This document shows, one piece after another, positions 8,698-21,323 of a stretch of DNA of 30,854 nucleotides. Location of the stretch: positions 1-30,854 of the IMG/VR virus record IMGVR_UViG_3300009149_000174; one strand, given 5' to 3'. Numbering within the stretch: position 1 is the stretch's first letter; the number at the start of each line of letters is the position of its first letter. The translations under genes and the position numbers were made by a program. This DNA comes from a virus. The notes beneath the pieces were generated by a model that saw only the letters and a program-made list of their open reading frames with translations, had not been told where the DNA came from and ran no database searches.

Positions 8698-8749
8698 GGT
8701 TAGGTAGGTTAGGTAGGTTAGTTATGTTAGTTATGTTAGTTATGTTAGT
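8698..8749 (+). repeat. Two adjacent 9-bp-period tandem repeats
   Basis: GGTTAGGTA occurs twice plus a partial copy (8698-8721), followed by TTAGTTATG three times plus a partial copy (8718-8749). Both have a 9-bp period although the units differ. The GG runs of the first tract resemble telomere-like G-rich repeats. Confidence 0.8.
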
Positions 8750-8759
8750 AGCTACTAAC
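8744..8759. promoter_or_regulatory. Perfect 16-bp palindrome
   Basis: GTTAGTAGCTACTAAC reads identically on both strands. It directly follows the tandem repeats and could be an operator or a cruciform. No promoter overlaps it clearly. Confidence 0.45.
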
Positions 8760-8860
8760 TAACTACTTACTGATGCTAATGTTATTAGTTAGGTTTTCTT
8801 ACTTATTCGCATGATATAAGTGGCGAAGTTGGGAAAGCTCTGATATACTTAGTGGGTAAG

Positions 8861-9054: not shown

Positions 9055-9282
9055 ATGAATAAAGATAATGGTACTAATAGCACTAATGGCACTAAAAGAG
9101 CTATAACCTTAAAGACTATCAACTGGGCAAAGGCTCATGATTGGTATCATTCGGCTGAGTTAAGCTCGGAAGATGAACTGGTAATCTATTGCACTGATTA
9201 CGATTTAGGCTTTGAGCCAAAGAAGCGTATCATTGTTAGCTTTACTTGTGCGGATGAGCTTAAGGCTTGGGCGGGTTATTAG
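9055..9282 (+). CDS. First early gene, hypothetical, 75 aa
   Basis: Not recognised. It starts at ATG 9055 with AAGGAG 8 nt upstream. The N-terminus is Asn/Thr-rich and polar (MNKDNGTNSTNGTKRA). The remainder is acidic with alternating hydrophobic residues (DELVIYCTDYDLGFEP, IIVSFTCADELKAW), suggesting a small beta-rich domain. As the first gene after the divergent control region it is a candidate host-takeover or regulatory protein, on position only. The (TTGG)12 repeat begins with the next base after its stop codon. Confidence 0.7.
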   Translation: MNKDNGTNSTNGTKRAITLKTINWAKAHDWYHSAELSSEDELVIYCTDYDLGFEPKKRIIVSFTCADELKAWAGY

Positions 9283-9330
9283 TTGGTTGGTTGGTTGGTT
9301 GGTTGGTTGGTTGGTTGGTTGGTTGGTTGG
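9283..9330 (+). repeat. (TTGG)12 tetranucleotide microsatellite
   Basis: Twelve perfect TTGG units, 48 bp, start with the first base after the stop codon of the first early gene and end 33 bp before the next start. Slippage of such tracts changes length in 4-bp steps. Here it would change the spacing between two genes, not a reading frame. GG runs separated by TT can also form two-layer quadruplexes. Confidence 0.97.
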
Positions 9331-10494: not shown

Positions 10495-10527
10495 TCCTTT
10501 CTATATCCTTTCTATATCCTTTCTATA
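10495..10527 (+). repeat. Three tandem copies of an 11-bp unit
   Basis: TCCTTTCTATA is repeated exactly three times just after the stop of the 293-aa gene and just before the terminator hairpin. Confidence 0.9.
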
Positions 10528-10530
10528 ACT

Positions 10531-10553
10531 AAGCCTCTTAATTGAGGCTTTTT
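10531..10553 (+). terminator. Rho-independent terminator of the first early unit
   Basis: AAGCCTC (10531-10537) and GAGGCTT (10544-10550) form a 7-bp stem with loop TTAATT, followed by a T-run to 10553. Confidence 0.85.
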
Positions 10554-10597
10554 AGGTAGTAGTAATTTGTAAAAACCTTTGGCAAGCTTTGCCATAA

Positions 10598-11051
10598 TAC
10601 CAAAATGCCAGAATACCAAAATGCCATGAACTTTTTATGGGGTGCATTTGGGTGTATTTATGTGCACGTCTGTATCTAAGTCTATCTGTATCTAAGTCTA
10701 TCTATCTGTATCTATCTAAGGCTATCTAGCTGTCTATCTATCTGTTAGTATCTGTAAGGGTGTAGGTTATTTAAAGATTAATAATATTAAATAAAGCTTA
10801 TTATAAAAATAATATACCCCCCTAAATATATACCCTAAGGTAGATACTAAGATACAGTTATATAGCTATAGCTATACCTAGCTACTTAGATACAGCTAGC
10901 TACTTACCTACAGGTATAGATAGGTAGTCTTAGCTAGGTATAGGCAAGGAGTGCTAGCTAAGCATAGGTAGAAATATATACAAAAGGGGGCATATATAGG
11001 CATATAAATTCCTTTGGCATTTTGGTATAATGGTATTCTGTCATTTTGGCA
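10598..11051. repeat. Four TACCAAAATGCCA motifs, two direct and two inverted
   Basis: Exact copies lie at 10598-10610 and 10614-10626 on plus and 11015-11027 on minus. A variant (GTCATTTTGGCA) is at 11040-11051 on minus. The two pairs face each other across about 390 bp, forming a long interrupted inverted repeat. Confidence 0.75.
10668..10755 (+). repeat. Degenerate CTATCTGTATCTAAG tandem repeats
   Basis: TCTGTATCTAAGTCTA and shorter TCTATCTG units recur through about 88 bp. The tract shows clear simple-sequence expansion and has no coding potential. Confidence 0.75.
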
Positions 11052-11138
11052 GGGCGTGCCGAATCGTGCCAATTTATTGACGCACCAAAACGGTGCAATT
11101 AATCCACCTAATTAATCCACCTATAAGAGGACTAAGCA

Positions 11139-11540
11139 ATGACCCCTAAACTAAGCGCGCTTAAACTAGCTAAACTTAAACTAAGCGCAGAGCAACACCT
11201 AAGCGGCTTAGCTAACGGTAGAGCCCCTGAGAATAAAGAATTTGGTATATGCTATAGCTTAGAGCACGTCTTATTAGCTACGGAATACTTAAACTACTCA
11301 AACCTTATAAGTGAATTAGCCTCTGAATGGCCTAAGCACTCTGGATATGCTGGCTTTCCCATACCTAGTGCTGAAGACTTTCTTACAGCCAAGGAATGTT
11401 ACTATACAGAGGCTTTATGGGAAGGGAAACAAGGAAAGTTAAGAAGGGAATTAGCTTTACACTGTAAGCATGAATTAGTTAGTTGGAGCTTAATTAAGTT
11501 TGCGGAGAGTTTAGGTTTAGAGATTACTAAGCTATACTAG
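11139..11540 (+). CDS. Hypothetical protein, 133 aa
   Basis: Function unknown. Start at ATG 11139 with AGAGGA upstream. The N-terminal helix is basic (LSALKLAKLKLSAEQHLSGL), and then the pattern NKEFGICYSLEH, SELASEWPKHSGYAGFPIPS and LRRELALHCKHEL resembles an unnamed family of phage early proteins I have seen without a function. It opens the second plus-strand gene block after the repeat region. Confidence 0.75.
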   Translation: MTPKLSALKLAKLKLSAEQHLSGLANGRAPENKEFGICYSLEHVLLATEYLNYSNLISELASEWPKHSGYAGFPIPSAEDFLTAKECYYTEALWEGKQGKLRRELALHCKHELVSWSLIKFAESLGLEITKLY

Positions 11541-12005: not shown

Positions 12006-12230
12006 ATGAAAATAGTAATAGAATTAGAACTGCCAGCCTTAGACATACTTGATAACTTAAGTATCCTTAACAGGCTGGTAATACAAAGAGAGCTTACAGA
12101 AGCCTTAGCTACTTATGCTAGATGTCTTAGCCTTAAGTATCCTACTCATGTAGTAGAGTCTACATTAGGCGGAGCTGAAGTCTTAAGTATCTCTAAAGTT
12201 AAAGAAGGATACTTACATGACTGCGCTTAA
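12006..12230 (+). CDS. Hypothetical protein, 74 aa
   Basis: Not recognised. It starts at ATG 12006 after AGGATAAG. The sequence begins with a hydrophobic beta-like strand MKIVIELELPALDI, then a helix VIQRELTEALATYARCLSL. It overlaps the next gene by 14 nt, so translation is probably coupled. Upstream, GCAGG and CCTGC (about 11967-11981) can form a weak hairpin without a T-run. Confidence 0.65.
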   Translation: MKIVIELELPALDILDNLSILNRLVIQRELTEALATYARCLSLKYPTHVVESTLGGAEVLSISKVKEGYLHDCA

Positions 12231-13720: not shown

Positions 13721-15556
13721 ATGAGTAAGCTTAACATGTTAGCTATACTAGCTAAGGCTAGAGCTAATAAGGAAAGAATGCTATATGCAGAGCTGCCAGC
13801 TACAGAGCCCCTACAGGCACCTATTGAGCCTAAGCTAACTCCTAAGCTAACTCCTATGCAACAAAAGCTCAAGGAATTAGTAGCAGCTAAGGCACTTAAG
13901 GAGATTCAAGTAAGGGTGGAAGCTGCTAGCGCCCATTCTACCGTAGTTACCGCCCCTACCGACACCGTACTAAGTGAAGGGGACTTAGCTACAGATGCTA
14001 CAGATACCTTACTTATAGGTGCTTTAGGTATGCACGGGGAGCAGATAACTTACAATGCAGAGCAGTTACGCTTTAGGGACTTAGCTGCAAGCGGTGAAAG
14101 CTGTGTGCTCATTGGGGCTGCCGGTACAGGTAAGACTACTTGCTCTAAGGCTGCTATTCAAGCTTTAGTAGATAGCAGTAAGGTACCTGTGCTTAGAGGG
14201 GATGGGCATAAGCACCTAATAGGTGGCTCTCCTGGCATTATCATTATCTCTTATACAAGGAGAGCTGTTAACAACATAAGAAAGGTACAAAGCGAAGACC
14301 TTAAGTCTAACTGCATAACAGCTCATAAGTTATTAGAGTACCAACCTGATTACTTTGAGATAGTAGATGAAGAGACAGGTAAATCTAAGAGGTCTATGCG
14401 CTTCTTACCTAGCCGTTGTGCTTCTAATCCTTTACCAGCTACTTTATATACTATCATAGTAGAAGAAGCATCCATGCTTAGCTTGGAGCTTTACCAAGAG
14501 ATAGAGGCTGCCTTACCTCACAAGGTACAGTGGATATTTATAGGAGATATACAACAATTACCTCCTGTATTTGGGCCAGCTATCTTAGGCTATAAGATGC
14601 TTGAGTACCCTTTAGTTGAGCTAACAGAAGTATATAGGCAGAGCTTAGAATTCCCTATAATAAGGTTAGCTCATAGAGTACTTAGTGGTGTTCCTATACC
14701 AGCTAAGGAATATCCTGAATGGAAAGAAGAAGGTAAGCTTACTATCCATCCTTGGAAGAAAAAGATGGACGGTGAACATGCTTGTATTATACTGGCTAAG
14801 TTCTTTATGCAGGCTATAACTAACAAGATATATGACCCTACGGAGGATATGATATTAGTTCCTTATAATAAGGCTTGCGGTACCTTAGAGCTTAACAAGC
14901 ATATAGCTAACTTCTTAGCAAGAGAAAGAGAAGCTATAACTTATGAGGTAATAGCAGGCTTTAATAAGCATTACTTATCAGTAGGAGATAAGATTCTATT
15001 TGATAAAGAAGATGCTGAAATTATAGAGATTAATGTTAACAATGCTTACAGGGGAGTTAAGTTTCAGAAGGCTTCTAGGTTCTTAGACTACTGGGGGCAT
15101 AATAAGAAGCCTAGAGACGTTAATGAAGTAATTATGGATAACGACTTTGATGCAGATGATATAGACTTCTTATTAGAGCAAGTAGCTTCTAGTGAAGATA
15201 GAGTTACTCAAGCTTCTCATACTATTACTGTACGCTTAGCTGATGGCTCTGAGGAAGTAACTATAGAGAAGGCTTCAGAAGTTAATAACTTATTACATGC
15301 ACACGCGTTAACTGTACATAAGGCTCAAGGCTCTGAGTGGCGTAAAGTGTTCTTCTGCTTACACCAATCTCACGCTAAGATGCTGCAAAGAGAGCTTTTA
15401 TATACTGGCATAACACGAGCCAGAGAAGAGCTTTATGTAATCTGCGAACCAGAGAGCTTTACAAACGGTATTCTATCTCAGAAGATTAAGGGCAACACCT
15501 TAGCTGAGAAAGCAGAATACTTTAAAGGTAAGATTAAATCTAAAGGAGGTTATTAG
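13721..15556 (+). CDS. SF1B DNA helicase (RecD/Dda-like)
   Basis: A 611-aa ATP-dependent helicase. Motifs in order: Q-like YNAEQLRF (111-118), Walker A GAAGTGKTT (132-140), Ia SYTRRAV (175-181), Walker B VEEAS (245-249, Glu-Glu instead of Asp-Glu), III GDIQQLPPV (273-281), IV VYRQS (302-306), V TVHKAQGSEW (531-540) and VI YTGITRARE (561-569). This set is that of RecD/Dda-type 5'-3' helicases used in phage replication or recombination. The first ~110 residues are an unrelated helical, Ala/Lys/Glu-rich arm holding an in-frame duplication KLTPKLTP. The gene is coupled to the 334-aa gene before it. A role at the fork or in origin melting is inferred. Confidence 0.92.
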   Translation: MSKLNMLAILAKARANKERMLYAELPATEPLQAPIEPKLTPKLTPMQQKLKELVAAKALKEIQVRVEAASAHSTVVTAPTDTVLSEGDLATDATDTLLIGALGMHGEQITYNAEQLRFRDLAASGESCVLIGAAGTGKTTCSKAAIQALVDSSKVPVLRGDGHKHLIGGSPGIIIISYTRRAVNNIRKVQSEDLKSNCITAHKLLEYQPDYFEIVDEETGKSKRSMRFLPSRCASNPLPATLYTIIVEEASMLSLELYQEIEAALPHKVQWIFIGDIQQLPPVFGPAILGYKMLEYPLVELTEVYRQSLEFPIIRLAHRVLSGVPIPAKEYPEWKEEGKLTIHPWKKKMDGEHACIILAKFFMQAITNKIYDPTEDMILVPYNKACGTLELNKHIANFLAREREAITYEVIAGFNKHYLSVGDKILFDKEDAEIIEINVNNAYRGVKFQKASRFLDYWGHNKKPRDVNEVIMDNDFDADDIDFLLEQVASSEDRVTQASHTITVRLADGSEEVTIEKASEVNNLLHAHALTVHKAQGSEWRKVFFCLHQSHAKMLQRELLYTGITRAREELYVICEPESFTNGILSQKIKGNTLAEKAEYFKGKIKSKGGY

Positions 15557-15558
15557 TT

Positions 15559-15768
15559 ATGAGTAAATGCAAGTGCGATACAAACAAGTTCTTTATAGTA
15601 TTAGAAGCGCCTAATGCTATAAGCTGTGCTTCTATCTTGGAAGCTCTTAAAGGAGCTATCCATACTGAAAACGAACTTAACCCTTATGACGTCTTACATG
15701 AATCTACCGTAGTTAGTGTAGAGAGTGTAGCAGGCGAATATCCAGTAATGAAAAGGAAAAGAGTATGA
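15559..15768 (+). CDS. Hypothetical protein, 69 aa
   Basis: Not recognised. It starts with a Cys-rich motif MSKCKCDTNKFFIVLEAPNA, then a helix and an acidic stretch, and ends KRKRV. A strong AAAGGAGG, read from within the helicase end, precedes ATG 15559. Its last 27 bases form copy A of a 28-bp direct repeat; the stop TGA overlaps the start of the next gene (ATGA arrangement). Confidence 0.65.
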   Translation: MSKCKCDTNKFFIVLEAPNAISCASILEALKGAIHTENELNPYDVLHESTVVSVESVAGEYPVMKRKRV

Positions 15769-15769
15769 A
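15742..15769 (+). repeat. 28-bp direct repeat, copy A
   Basis: CCAGTAATGAAAAGGAAAAG plus AGTATGAA is identical to 16216-16243. It carries the RBS (AAGGAAAAG) and the start codon of the following gene (ATG 15765). Sequences beyond the repeat differ at once on both sides. Confidence 0.97.
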
Positions 15770-16181
15770 GATGCCTAAAAGAATAAACGCTGGTATTAAG
15801 TCGCCAGCAGAAGCAGCACAGCGTATGCAAGATGGAGAGGTGTTCTATGCAAAAAGCGGGAGCAGATTAACTTACGATGAACTTGCAGAAGCTAAGTTCG
15901 TTTACTCCCTTTATGGAGAAGTAGGTACGCCAATAGCAGGCCTATGGAGTTCAGTTGATGAATGGTTAGTAGCCGTAGAGATGCCTTGGTATGAAGAAGA
16001 AGACGCATTTCCCAGACTATGCTGGGTGAGTGACCGTAACCCAGAGGAGGCCCGCCACTCTGCAATAATTATTAGATACATAGCGGGCCATGCTTTCCCG
16101 TTTAATGCAGCAGATGGGGGCATAAAATGGAAACTTGCTAAACCATTCAACTCAGAAGAAGCTGCGAAGTATATCCGTTAA
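15765..16181 (+). CDS. Hypothetical inserted gene of foreign composition, 138 aa
   Basis: Function unknown. The pattern SPAEAAQRMQDGEVFYAKSG recalls unnamed phage proteins with a Trp-rich C-terminal half (LWSSVDEWLVAVEMPWYEEE), and the fold is probably a small mixed alpha/beta domain. Its codons differ from neighbours: more CCC, GCC, GGC, CGC and few TTA/GCT pairs, with AGCT words only about twice in 417 bp. It is enclosed by exact 28-bp direct repeats, each of which supplies an RBS and ATG. This looks like a recently added accessory gene (moron). A defence or counter-defence role is possible but unsupported. Confidence 0.75.
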   Translation: MKMPKRINAGIKSPAEAAQRMQDGEVFYAKSGSRLTYDELAEAKFVYSLYGEVGTPIAGLWSSVDEWLVAVEMPWYEEEDAFPRLCWVSDRNPEEARHSAIIIRYIAGHAFPFNAADGGIKWKLAKPFNSEEAAKYIR

Positions 16182-16215
16182 TCAAATACCTTGGCTTACC
16201 TAGATGTAAGTAAGG

Positions 16216-16243
16216 CCAGTAATGAAAAGGAAAAGAGTATGAA
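16216..16243 (+). repeat. 28-bp direct repeat, copy B
   Basis: Identical to 15742-15769. It carries the RBS and ATG 16239 of the next gene. The two copies are 474 bp apart and bracket the 138-aa gene. Confidence 0.97.
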
Positions 16244-16559
16244 ACTTAAAACTGATATCTCAACTAAGAGCCCTAAGCCTAGAGTACCTGCTAAGCCTAG
16301 AAGTAAGCTACAAAAGATGCAAGCTCAGTATAACTTTGCTTATAACTTTAGGTTACAGGACTTTCATTCTAGCTGTGTAACTGAGTTCCCTTTAAGTACG
16401 AGAACTCTTCAGGCTGTCTATACCTACAATAACGCCATTACTGAACTAAGAGCAGCTATAAGAGTTGACTACCTATATACCTCTAATGAGATTAAGTACT
16501 TAAGAGAGCTAAGGATGTGCAAAGGAAAGCTCTCATTAGCCAAGCAGTCGAAAAAATAA
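16239..16559 (+). CDS. Basic hypothetical protein, 106 aa
   Basis: Not recognised. ATG 16239 inside repeat copy B is chosen because AAGGAAAAG sits just upstream; an upstream TTG at 16191 has no SD. The protein is strongly basic at its N-terminus (STKSPKPRVPAKPRSKLQKM), followed by a helical domain with Arg/Tyr (AYNFRLQDF, ELRAAIRVDYLYTSNEIKYL) and a Lys-rich end. Nucleic-acid binding is plausible from charge. Before the insertion it probably followed the 69-aa gene directly, with its start overlapping that gene's stop. Confidence 0.7.
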   Translation: MKLKTDISTKSPKPRVPAKPRSKLQKMQAQYNFAYNFRLQDFHSSCVTEFPLSTRTLQAVYTYNNAITELRAAIRVDYLYTSNEIKYLRELRMCKGKLSLAKQSKK

Positions 16560-16583: not shown

Positions 16584-16614
16584 TTGACGTTTCAGGGCGT
16601 TATGGTACTATAGT
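16584..16614 (+). promoter_or_regulatory. Sigma70-like promoter for the 234-aa protein gene
   Basis: TTGACG (16584-16589) is followed after 16 nt by TACTAT (16606-16611), or after 19 nt by TATAGT (16609-16614). It is in a 144-bp gene-free interval directly before a hairpin leader and a gene that has its own terminator. Confidence 0.65.
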
Positions 16615-16703: not shown

Positions 16704-17408
16704 ATGCCAGAAGTAAATGAAGCCGTAGGAAATTCAGTAATCACCATCAAAGCCAGTAACCCAAGCGCAGAAGATATGGCTGCTTTTGTAGTTACCGTTC
16801 AAGAACAGCTTGGTGCAAGCGTTACAGTAGCAGCTAATACTTTTCAGTTTAAAAAGTCAGTTGATAAAGTAACTGGTGTTGAAACTGTACGTGAACCAGT
16901 TGACTTAGCCATTCCTTTCCTTAGCTTAGATGGTTTACAGACTATCTTGAATGCCGGCGGCAAAGGCTTGGAGTTGCTATTCAATGCAGCTAATCAAATC
17001 ATCCTTGACCAAGCGCGTGAACTTATTAAAGATACAAGCTTAGATTGTGCCAGCTTGCCTTTAGATAAGCTTGCTTGGGATGTTATTGCTAACTTACCTA
17101 AAGCCCAACGTGGCGGCGGTGTACCTAAAGAGCTTTGGGATGCCTTTGCTATTAACTACATCGAAGTTATGCAAGAAGCTGCGGGTAAGACTCTTGAGCA
17201 AGCAAGCGCAGCGGCTCGTATCTTTACTAACAAGTTGGTTGCTGTACGTTCTAATGAAGCAATCATTAACAAGCTTGTTGGTCAGCTAGCTATCTATGCT
17301 GAGTCTACAGAGCAGCTTGAAGTGTTCCAACCTGTTGTTGAGTTCCTATTGAACAAAGCTGAAATGTTCTTACAAGCTGATGATTCAGCCTTACTTGAGT
17401 CTCTATAA
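16704..17408 (+). CDS. Probably highly expressed hypothetical protein, 234 aa
   Basis: Not recognised. ATG 16704 is preferred over GTG 16692, as GTGAG lies 7 nt upstream. The protein starts MPEVNEAVGNSVITIKASNP, is Ala/Leu-rich, acidic and mostly helical, and contains a Gly-rich loop AQRGGGVPKELW. No enzyme motif is visible. It is a single-gene transcription unit with its own promoter, leader hairpin and strong terminator. Its codons (CGT for Arg, GGC, CCA, more GAA) are unlike the AGA/AGG-rich neighbours and like the ssDNA-binding protein gene, which suggests abundant production. A DNA-binding or recombination partner role is inference. Confidence 0.75.
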   Translation: MPEVNEAVGNSVITIKASNPSAEDMAAFVVTVQEQLGASVTVAANTFQFKKSVDKVTGVETVREPVDLAIPFLSLDGLQTILNAGGKGLELLFNAANQIILDQARELIKDTSLDCASLPLDKLAWDVIANLPKAQRGGGVPKELWDAFAINYIEVMQEAAGKTLEQASAAARIFTNKLVAVRSNEAIINKLVGQLAIYAESTEQLEVFQPVVEFLLNKAEMFLQADDSALLESL

Positions 17409-18366: not shown

Positions 18367-18775
18367 CCCTATCTTGCAGCGTATAGCGGAACTTAAAGCT
18401 AAGCAGCTAGTTAGTAAGGAGCCTGCTAAGTTATTTACTTTATCTACGCTTATTATAATTCGTAATAAAGCTAGCAGAGAATGCACAGTAGATTACTCAA
18501 TTGGCTTAAAGGCTGTACTTGAGTACTTAATACCTGCCAATCATAAGCCTAGCGATGGATGCCCTTTTAACTTAGAGTTAGATAAGTACCCGTTAGCTTT
18601 AGATGAAGGCTTTAAGTTACCTTGTACGCTTGCAGGATACGCAAGTTCGGAACTAGCTAGCCTAATAGCTAGGAGTTATACGACTAACACTAAAGATTAC
18701 CTTGCTGAATATAGTAAGCTAGTTAAGCTTATAGTGTTAACATCTTTTGATTTAGCTGTTAAGGGAATTATATGA
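18359..18775 (+). CDS. Hypothetical protein, 138 aa
   Basis: Not recognised. It begins MTNPILQRIAELKAKQLVSK, the same type of short helical Lys-rich N-terminal tag (xxxLAxLKAKK) seen on the nuclease, helicase and polymerase of this phage, then a mixed domain with KAVLEYLIPANHKPSDGCPF and a hydrophobic helical end. It overlaps both the preceding gene and the nuclease (ATGA), so it is coupled to the nuclease and may be its partner. Confidence 0.7.
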   Translation: MTNPILQRIAELKAKQLVSKEPAKLFTLSTLIIIRNKASRECTVDYSIGLKAVLEYLIPANHKPSDGCPFNLELDKYPLALDEGFKLPCTLAGYASSELASLIARSYTTNTKDYLAEYSKLVKLIVLTSFDLAVKGII

Positions 18776-19872
18776 CACAAGACCTTAGAGCTCTATTAGC
18801 AAGAAAGAAAGCAGAGAAAGCTAGTAGTGAGCTCGTTACTGCCAAGCTTGACTTCCTTGATGAGCCAGTAGAACAGAAGGAGAGAGCAGAGATAATAGAA
18901 TTAGCTGAAGGAGAAATAGACCCAAGGCTTAAGTTACTATCTCATTCAAGCCGCTGCTTACTTCACACCTGTCCACGTAAGTATCAGTTATATAGACTGA
19001 ACAGTGAGACTATCCTTATGGAAGATGGAAAAGAGAGAGAGCAAGCAGTTACCTTTGCTTATGGTAAGGTAGTTGGCTTAGGTATGCAGTTAGTTTTACA
19101 AGGACTTACTGAGGATGAAATATACCTTAAGTGCTTCTTAGAATGGGACACTGATTTACTAGCTGAAAATGACAAGCAGAAGAAGTCTTTCTGGCTAGCT
19201 ATGTTTGCAGTGCGTAAGTTTATAGCTTTAAGAGCAGATGGCTTCTTAGAAAACTATGGGCTTGTATACTATCAAGACTTGCCAGCCATAGAGTTAAGCT
19301 TCCAAGTTACTTTACCTAATGGCTTTAAGTACAGAGGCTTCATTGACGCTGTATTGCAGCATAGATTAACTAAGGAGATTATGGTATTAGAGGCTAAGAC
19401 TTCTAGCGGGGCAGCTAATAGCGCAGCTTATAAGAATTCAGGTCAAGCAGTAGGTTACTCTGTAGTACTTGATATCTTATTTCCTGAGTTAAGTTCTTAC
19501 TCTGTACTTTACTTGGTGTATGAAACTAAGTCTAAAGAGTATGTTGAACTGCCCTTTAAGAAGTCATTGCTTCAGCGAGCTTTATGGTTACAAGAGCTTT
19601 TAATAGACACTAAGATAATAGAGATGTTTGAGCTTTACGATACTTATCCTATGCACGGTGAGTCTTGTAATCATTTCTTTAGGGACTGCGAGTACTTATC
19701 CCTATGCACACTAGATACTGATAAGCTGACTAAGCCTTGGACAACTAAGTTGCAAAGGGAATTAGAAGAGTCAGATAGTAAGTATCAATTTAATGTAAGC
19801 TTTGAAGAGCTGCTTGAGTCGCAACTTAGTAAAGGCAACTTACCTGAGGAAAGTGAAGATGATAGATTGTAA
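18772..19872 (+). CDS. PD-(D/E)XK exonuclease, Cas4/RecB-like with probable Fe-S cysteines
   Basis: A 366-aa protein with the order CxxxxCPRKY (Cys62, Cys67), GFIDAVL (Asp192), VLEAKTSS (Glu207, Lys209) and QAVGY (Q225-x3-Y229), the signature of PDDEXK_1/RecB-like nucleases. Near the C-terminus ESCNHFFRDCEYLSLC supplies Cys299, Cys306 and Cys312. With an N-terminal Cys these could hold an Fe-S cluster, as in Cas4, AddB and Dna2, although the spacing is not the standard one. It probably resects DNA ends for recombination with the Sak4-like ATPase downstream. No CRISPR array or other cas gene is nearby, so a Cas4 adaptation role is unlikely. Confidence 0.87.
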   Translation: MTQDLRALLARKKAEKASSELVTAKLDFLDEPVEQKERAEIIELAEGEIDPRLKLLSHSSRCLLHTCPRKYQLYRLNSETILMEDGKEREQAVTFAYGKVVGLGMQLVLQGLTEDEIYLKCFLEWDTDLLAENDKQKKSFWLAMFAVRKFIALRADGFLENYGLVYYQDLPAIELSFQVTLPNGFKYRGFIDAVLQHRLTKEIMVLEAKTSSGAANSAAYKNSGQAVGYSVVLDILFPELSSYSVLYLVYETKSKEYVELPFKKSLLQRALWLQELLIDTKIIEMFELYDTYPMHGESCNHFFRDCEYLSLCTLDTDKLTKPWTTKLQRELEESDSKYQFNVSFEELLESQLSKGNLPEESEDDRL

Positions 19873-20284: not shown

Positions 20285-20473
20285 ATGGTACTCTTAGCAG
20301 CGATATTTGACTTAGGTATGTTTATTATAGTGCTATTTTTGGCTTTCTTAGCTATACTAACTGTACTAGAAATAGTATGCCATCACGTAGTATTGCCTGT
20401 AGTTAAGAAAGCTGGGCTTAGTAAGCCAGCAGTTAGCCCCCCAAGAAGGAGACGTACAGATGGCAAATCTTAG
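20285..20473 (+). CDS. Small single-pass membrane protein, 62 aa
   Basis: Residues about 2-32 are strongly hydrophobic (LLAAIFDLGMFIIVLFLAFL then AILTVLEIV), long enough for one or two membrane passes. A Pro-rich, basic tail with RRRR (54-57) follows, likely cytoplasmic. A GGAAG-type SD precedes ATG 20285, and the end overlaps the Sak4-like gene by 14 nt. It may tether a protein to the membrane or act as an exclusion factor. A holin is less likely, with no endolysin nearby. Confidence 0.6.
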   Translation: MVLLAAIFDLGMFIIVLFLAFLAILTVLEIVCHHVVLPVVKKAGLSKPAVSPPRRRRTDGKS

Positions 20474-21323
20474 TAGCCTAAAGGCAAGTGGTACTCATAG
20501 AGCTATCTTATTCGGAGGGCCGAAAGCTGGTAAGACTTTATTAGCTGGTAAGTTAGCTGAGCACTTTAAGTTAATATGGGTGGATATGGAGAACGGACAC
20601 GAAACTTTGTTCCAGTTACCTGAAGCCTGGCAGAATAACATTGAGTTAATAGCTTTAAGAGATACCCGCTCTTATCCTATAGCTATAGAGACTGTGCTTA
20701 AGATGGTTAAAGGCCCAGTAGCTATATGTGAAGCTCATGGTAAAGTAAGCTGTATGATATGTAAGAAGGAAGCTGCGCCTGTAGTGGATGTAGATTTGAA
20801 CTCTTTGCGCTCAGACACTATAGTAGTCTTTGACTCTTTAACTCAGTTAACAAGTAGTGCTATAGCTAACATGACTAAGGGCAAGCCGGATGATTATAAG
20901 CTTGTAACGGATGATTGGGGTAACTTAGGTAAGCTATTAGATATCTTCTTATCTCACCTTCAGCAGGCTAACTATAACGTAGTTGTTATCTCTCATGAAA
21001 CTGAGATAGAAACTGAAGGTAAGAAGAAGCAGCTAGTTCCTGTAGGCGGAACACGTAACTACTCTCGTAATGTAGCTAAGTTCTTCGATCATGTTATCTA
21101 TGTAGAAAGAAAGAATAAGAAGCACATGGTATCTTCTTCTACCACTGGCTCTTCTACTATCTTAACTGGTTCTCGGTCTAACATAGCTATGGAATTAGAA
21201 GCAGAGGCTTCTTTACTACAGATATTCAGACCTGACTTATACGTGTCCACTGCTGTAGCTAAAGCTCCTATAACTAGCGGAGCTAAAGCTAACAGTATAC
21301 TTGAGAGACTTAAAGCCAAGTAA
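20460..21323 (+). CDS. RecA-like ATPase, Sak4-type single-strand annealing candidate, with zinc-knuckle-like insertion
   Basis: A 287-aa P-loop ATPase: Walker A GGPKAGKT (19-26), an acidic VDMENG turn (41-46), Walker B TIVVFDSLT (120-128), a strand ending VVVISHET and GGTRNYSRNVAKFFDHVIYV. This is the AAA_24/Sak4-like RecA family whose phage members bind ssDNA and promote annealing with a phage ssDNA-binding protein. Here the probable ssDNA-binding gene is next, which fits that pair. Between the strands lies Cys90-x2-His93-x4-Cys98-x2-Cys101 (ICEAHGKVSCMICKK), a pattern that could bind zinc. The C-terminal ~35 residues form a basic tail. Alternative: a general phage ATP-binding protein. Confidence 0.85.
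   Translation: MANLSSLKASGTHRAILFGGPKAGKTLLAGKLAEHFKLIWVDMENGHETLFQLPEAWQNNIELIALRDTRSYPIAIETVLKMVKGPVAICEAHGKVSCMICKKEAAPVVDVDLNSLRSDTIVVFDSLTQLTSSAIANMTKGKPDDYKLVTDDWGNLGKLLDIFLSHLQQANYNVVVISHETEIETEGKKKQLVPVGGTRNYSRNVAKFFDHVIYVERKNKKHMVSSSTTGSSTILTGSRSNIAMELEAEASLLQIFRPDLYVSTAVAKAPITSGAKANSILERLKAK

Follow-up and report, generated by a model that had tools for sequence, protein, structure and literature searches.

A codon-atypical gene between two identical translation-start leaders in a phage operon, probably gained in a variable cargo slot

How did a gene of unusual codon usage come to lie between two exact copies of a sequence that carries the start codon of the gene following each copy? 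This question is raised by a locus in IMG/VR virus record IMGVR_UViG_3300009149_000174, of which positions 1 to 30,854 were analyzed; this whole stretch of 30,854 nucleotides is called the window. An earlier reading of the letters alone, here called the original prediction, had described a 138-aa gene of foreign composition bracketed by direct repeats and had proposed a cassette insertion or moron acquisition with target duplication. The locus comprises the following features, in the order of their position.

13721..15556, + strand: gene of a 611-aa Dda/RecD-like SF1 helicase, bounding the cargo slot on its left (PHROG 325 Dda-like helicase, E 5e-61; Pfam AAA_19 and UvrD_C_2; syntenic in relatives)
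15559..15768, + strand: 69-aa gene, last eight codons and stop within copy A (no relatives found)
15742..15769, + strand: repeat copy A, comprising the 69-aa gene's 3' end and the SD (AAGGA)/ATG of the 138-aa gene (exact, 28/28 versus copy B)
15765..16181, + strand: 138-aa accessory gene, codon-atypical (no family match; codon z -3.67)
16216..16243, + strand: repeat copy B, SD/ATG of the 106-aa gene (exact, 28/28 versus copy A)
16239..16559, + strand: 106-aa gene, member of a resident family found ahead of g234 in many relatives (alignment and profile search)
16704..17408, + strand: 234-aa conserved gene (g234), right border of the cargo slot (41-50% identity to aligned relatives)

The 28-bp direct repeat, CCAGTAATGAAAAGGAAAAGAGTATGAA, is present exactly twice, at 15742-15769 and 16216-16243, with a spacing of 474 bp between the copies; the original prediction had given the same positions and spacing, and they hold. 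Just outside the copies no similarity was found on either side. No other non-tandem exact repeat in the 30,854-base window is as long, all longer exact runs being tandem TTGG, and 50 dinucleotide shuffles of the window gave repeats of at most 19 bp. Each copy had been said to supply a ribosome binding site and the ATG of the next gene, with copy A also ending the 69-aa gene, and the positions of the open reading frames bear this out. Copy A encodes the C-terminal PVMKRKRV and the stop codon of the 69-aa gene, which the start of the 138-aa reading frame overlaps via ATGA; the 106-aa reading frame begins at 16239, inside copy B. The 474-bp unit consists of the 138-aa gene, a short spacer and one leader copy.

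Other repeats in the window are of a different kind. Short tandem repeats at 9282-9330, 8698-8762 and 10495-10540 ((TTGG)n, GTTAG-type and TCCTTTCTATA) are intergenic and lie around divergent transcription units. A long imperfect inverted repeat at 10578-11063, with 49-nt arms that are 78% complementary and 388 nt apart, is located in a gene-poor stretch and is possibly a regulatory or replication region.

The codon and word use of the 138-aa gene had been called distinct. This gene ranks lowest among 36 genes by leave-one-out codon score (z -3.67; second lowest -2.66), uses GCA in place of GCT for alanine and is scarce in the words CTTA and AGCT. The gene is thus the most codon-atypical of the 36, but it stands out only moderately: a score of -3.47 was reached by one window of 137 codons elsewhere, and 6% of CDS windows reached a trinucleotide distance at least as large. 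Word use in the spacer 16182-16215 appeared native by eye; it is therefore uncertain where the inserted DNA ends on the right.

Searches with the 138-aa protein gave no above-chance match in Pfam, PHROG, NCBIfam, PADLOC or PDB and no relatives in IMG/VR or GTDB genomes, and tblastn against phages and plasmids produced chance-level matches only. Donor searches for the gene in phages, plasmids, IMG/VR and GTDB genomes yielded nothing usable. Weak Pfam matches to annexin and a coronavirus RBD were below cut-off and were disregarded. A single-sequence AlphaFold2 model reached a mean pLDDT of 36.5 and is uninformative for a fold or an anti-defence role. For the 69-aa protein, kinship with the product of window gene g74 (12006-12230) and with a 56-aa protein of the relative L026 was suspected by eye, and it was dropped at 19-23% identity and no profile matches.

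No transposase match was obtained in the single reading frame of the unit, as the original prediction had said, and no inverted repeat bounds the unit among the 25 longest listed. The 69-, 138- and 106-aa proteins gave no Pfam, PHROG or NCBIfam match to an HNH, GIY-YIG or LAGLIDADG endonuclease. A transposon or homing gene within the unit was rejected by these family scans.

Morons carry their own promoter and terminator, and boundary (linker) sequences are common to different phages. As in both, the accessory gene of the window lies between conserved genes and its boundaries fall at gene ends; in contrast to boundary sequences, which are shared between phages, the repeat is found within one genome. 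In the relatives L004, L021 and L008 the 106-aa family adjoins the helicase gene directly, so that the 138-aa gene of the window stands between genes contiguous there; the 69-aa gene is also extra. A sigma-70-type consensus scan detected no promoter around the 138-aa gene above shuffle expectation, and no forward-strand terminator-like site was found around it, the only such site being on the reverse strand. The label moron is accordingly weak. The only forward promoter-like site, at 16584-16611 between the cargo slot and g234, resembles a sigma-70 promoter (TTGACG, 16 nt, TACTAT, TG before the second hexamer) at a count not above chance; if functional, it would uncouple expression of the slot from that of g234.

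Relatives of the window phage were collected from IMG/VR by means of their helicase, polymerase and g234 proteins. Among 100 distinct relatives, the interval from the helicase stop to the g234 start ranged from 42 to 2201 bp (median 445) and was at most 190 bp in 25. The reading frames in this interval, 105 in number, fell into 84 clusters with 73 singletons, and the 69- and 138-aa genes of the window are both singletons. Neither of the two was found in the helicase-g234 loci of the 100 relatives, and the 138-aa gene was also missing from 20 whole records of relatives. Since the interval is variable, its genes are mostly unique and both window genes are missing from the relatives' loci, the helicase-g234 interval is a hypervariable cargo slot for small genes. 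The 106-aa family often precedes g234. L049 contains two g106-family genes in tandem within the slot (L049:4983-5569). Two tandem relatives of window gene g133 (11139-11540) lie directly upstream of the helicase gene in L006 (L006:5213-5986); the window g133 is distant from the helicase gene.

It had been proposed that a relative lacking the 138-aa gene should show one repeat copy joining the 69-aa and 106-aa genes. The gene is indeed missing in the relatives, but no near relative with one copy was found: the closest share only about 65% helicase identity and are therefore too diverged to display the 28-bp sequence.

We compared start leaders in general. Start regions of 32 bp (-26 to +6) of the genes of 101 loci were searched for identical in-register runs; genes one or two apart were counted as neighbouring and genes further apart in the same locus as distant. 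Because a simple rule set the gene starts, individual cases may be wrong, but the contrast between neighbouring and distant pairs is independent of this rule. A shared leader of at least 15 bp was found in 8 of 3019 neighbouring pairs, 1 of 11229 distant pairs and 0 of 45860 between-genome pairs, an excess among neighbours of about 30-fold versus distant genes (Fisher p 3e-5; 1.2e-4 without the window). At a threshold of 13 bp, 17 neighbouring, 5 distant and 4 between-genome pairs remained. The longest shared leader among all pairs is the window's own.

The proteins behind shared leaders were unrelated in the pairs inspected, except for one paralogous pair (L004 3617/3992). Two parallels occupy the same slot: in L090, GGAGTAGATATCATG precedes a 104-aa gene and a gene that in L012 directly follows the helicase gene, and in L147, AGAGAAAGCGAGAAT precedes two slot genes. 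Elsewhere, L004:11967-12083 shows an identical 20-bp leader before a 35-aa membrane-like protein and a Sak4-like gene, whose proteins are unrelated, and L166:219-794 encodes a 191-aa protein with repeated VDAAYAA motifs and a 16-bp leader common to its neighbour. The paralogous genes at L004:3617-4249 carry repeated Cys-Asn motifs (CNNCNNC). A T7-like control set showed a smaller neighbour excess, 4 of 2827 versus 11 of 14318 distant pairs; many of these 11 are T7 promoters, which inflates the rate for distant genes, and two of the 4 are long duplications in L239 that are not leader cases, yet stand in the raw counts.

Other explanations of the repeat were weighed. Initiation regions are purine-rich and constrained, and identical ones may thus arise by chance or convergence; however, not one between-genome comparison reached 15 bp, and the shuffles stayed at or below 19 bp anywhere in the window. 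Chance and convergence were rejected on these grounds and have next to no probability.

Alternatively, the repeat could be a start-associated regulatory motif whose copies mark co-regulated genes and not an insertion. Start-associated sequences are known from cluster K mycobacteriophages and from Microbacterium phages of cluster EF; they, too, hold the SD position just before the start codons of small genes, as the repeat does for two genes, but they are dispersed 13-bp motifs with about 10-19 copies in each genome and are conserved from phage to phage (PMC3203893, PMC7302621). The window has two neighbouring 28-bp copies without conservation in relatives. A third copy of the 22-bp core was absent from the 30.8 kb even when up to 3 mismatches were allowed, and the exact core is absent from IMG/VR. 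Moreover, the other leader pairs in relatives differ in sequence, and sharing is mostly confined to neighbours. With two copies in the record instead of about ten or more dispersed at gene starts, a motif of this type was rejected; we rate it as very unlikely.

Two leaders would also result if leader and gene were duplicated in tandem and one gene copy then diverged or was replaced. Tandem paralogues do occur in the group, namely the two g106-family genes of L049, the two g133-family genes of L006 and the leader pair of L004, but the 138- and 106-aa proteins are without similarity, and an unchanged leader beside a wholly diverged coding sequence is not to be expected. As the 138-aa gene is also more codon-atypical than its neighbours, we regard a tandem duplication as unlikely; a later replacement of one copy may nevertheless have taken place.

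A case in which both states of such a site exist was found in T7-like phages of the genus Kayfunavirus. L240, over the tested region identical to Escherichia phage vB_EcoP_F (KY295894), contains the 17-bp SD+ATG leader TTAAGGAGTGACCAATG twice, exactly, flanking a 59-aa gene before the primase/helicase gene (L240:15795-16001). L239 and L267, whose flanks are 94-98% identical to L240, have TTAAGGAGTGACCAATG once at the same junction. In L241 the 59-aa gene is present and the first leader copy is mutated. A 651-bp query matched 193 records of a phage collection; among the 60 matches listed of these 193, 16 were occupied (all 651 bp) and 42 empty (about 461 bp, exactly 190 bp less). Thus, a gene between duplicated start leaders does enter or leave a phage operon as one exact unit. 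The likeness to the window lies in a small gene between two exact SD+ATG leaders ahead of a resident gene in an operon; the repeat differs in being 17 bp long, sequence and phage are unrelated, and the one-copy empty form is common.

In Kayfunavirus 216Ecol046PP an additional HNH-like gene uses the second leader copy, the same leader site. HNH endonuclease genes are also found among the slot genes of a few relatives of the window phage, likely the group L053, L081, L144 and L190. An HNH gene may accordingly have cut the slot, and repair may have brought or left the small gene and the duplicated leader. However, no HNH gene lies beside the repeat among the window proteins scanned, and the link consists of a shared location only; such a homing exchange appears quite improbable.

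A literature search for genes flanked by SD+ATG leaders returned only the start-associated sequences, morons and boundary sequences discussed above and two further precedents from mycobacteriophages. The closest is the insertion of genes 43-46 in LRRHood, 1.36 kb with four genes including a repressor gene, which is flanked by 29-bp direct repeats where relatives have one copy (PMC3029335); the 29-bp repeat was confirmed by a sequence check. As in the window, where the 28-bp copies match at all positions, an accessory segment with a foreign gene lies between exact short direct repeats, the first copy ending the upstream gene and the second lying ahead of the next one. In LRRHood, however, the duplicated sequence is that of the upstream gene's 3' end and includes no start codon, whereas each window copy provides SD and ATG for the gene that follows. 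Furthermore, relatives of LRRHood have a single copy, whereas those of the window phage lack the 138-aa gene and are too distant for the repeat to be recognized; relatives lacking the segment and carrying one copy were found for the T7-like analogue. In Brujita and Island3, insertion or deletion of gene 68 at a repeat of about 60 bp was attributed to general recombination (PMC3029335). There, too, one small gene is present or absent between direct repeats, but these consist of the 3' coding ends of the two genes and not of a start leader.

We consider it likely that the 474-bp unit is an accessory gene gained in an early-operon cargo slot and that the 28-bp repeats are a duplicated resident translation-start leader. 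The cassette insertion of the original prediction is partly supported, in that the slot is variable, the gene is missing from relatives and the T7-like phages offer an occupied/empty parallel; the single-copy relative of the window phage was not found. Before the event, a single leader copy would probably have joined the 69-aa gene directly to the 106-aa gene, the two overlapping via ATGA. In silico removal of the 474 bp between the repeats left the 69-aa and 106-aa reading frames unchanged and joined by exactly this overlap, so that this joined form is plausible as the earlier state; that the window phage gained the unit is our inference. The gain would leave the new gene with a leader copy on either side; newcomer and downstream resident gene would each obtain an SD and a start codon, and neither neighbour would be broken. 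The simulated deletion agrees with the earlier claim that the gene was added without breaking the operon. It is also compatible with the claim that the repeats allow precise loss, as both reading frames stay intact; the later loss of the unit by recombination between the copies may follow.

Two genes of the window encode candidate enzymes for such an event.

18772..19872, + strand: PD-(D/E)XK exonuclease, candidate recombination enzyme (PF12705, E 1.1e-8; PHROG 1218 exonuclease)
20460..21323, + strand: Sak4-like ssDNA annealing protein, candidate recombinase (PHROG 124, E 3e-18; PF13479)

Phage annealing proteins and exonucleases are machinery of the type that recombines short homologies. Because the phage carries both, short-homology recombination at the start leader, by annealing or template switch, is the more likely route of gain, and the phage's own Sak4-like protein and exonuclease may take part. 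Target duplication in the transposon sense, part of the original prediction, is not indicated.

To our knowledge, most mosaic junctions in phage genomes preserve no record of the way in which a gene came in. A duplicated start leader is a record of this kind, and any genome can be scanned for it. It explains how a newcomer is translated immediately without harm to its neighbours, and it predicts precise and testable reversion, for which Kayfunavirus, where occupied and empty forms occur naturally, provides a system that can be cultured. We tentatively suggest that phages recurrently gain small genes by duplicating a resident start leader, with the newcomer expressed in one step and precisely losable. 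The signature of this route might possibly be an SD+ATG leader that is identical in two adjacent but unrelated genes, as observed here in two phage groups without relationship to each other. Duplicated start leaders on adjacent genes, as a wider phenomenon, merit a systematic scan.
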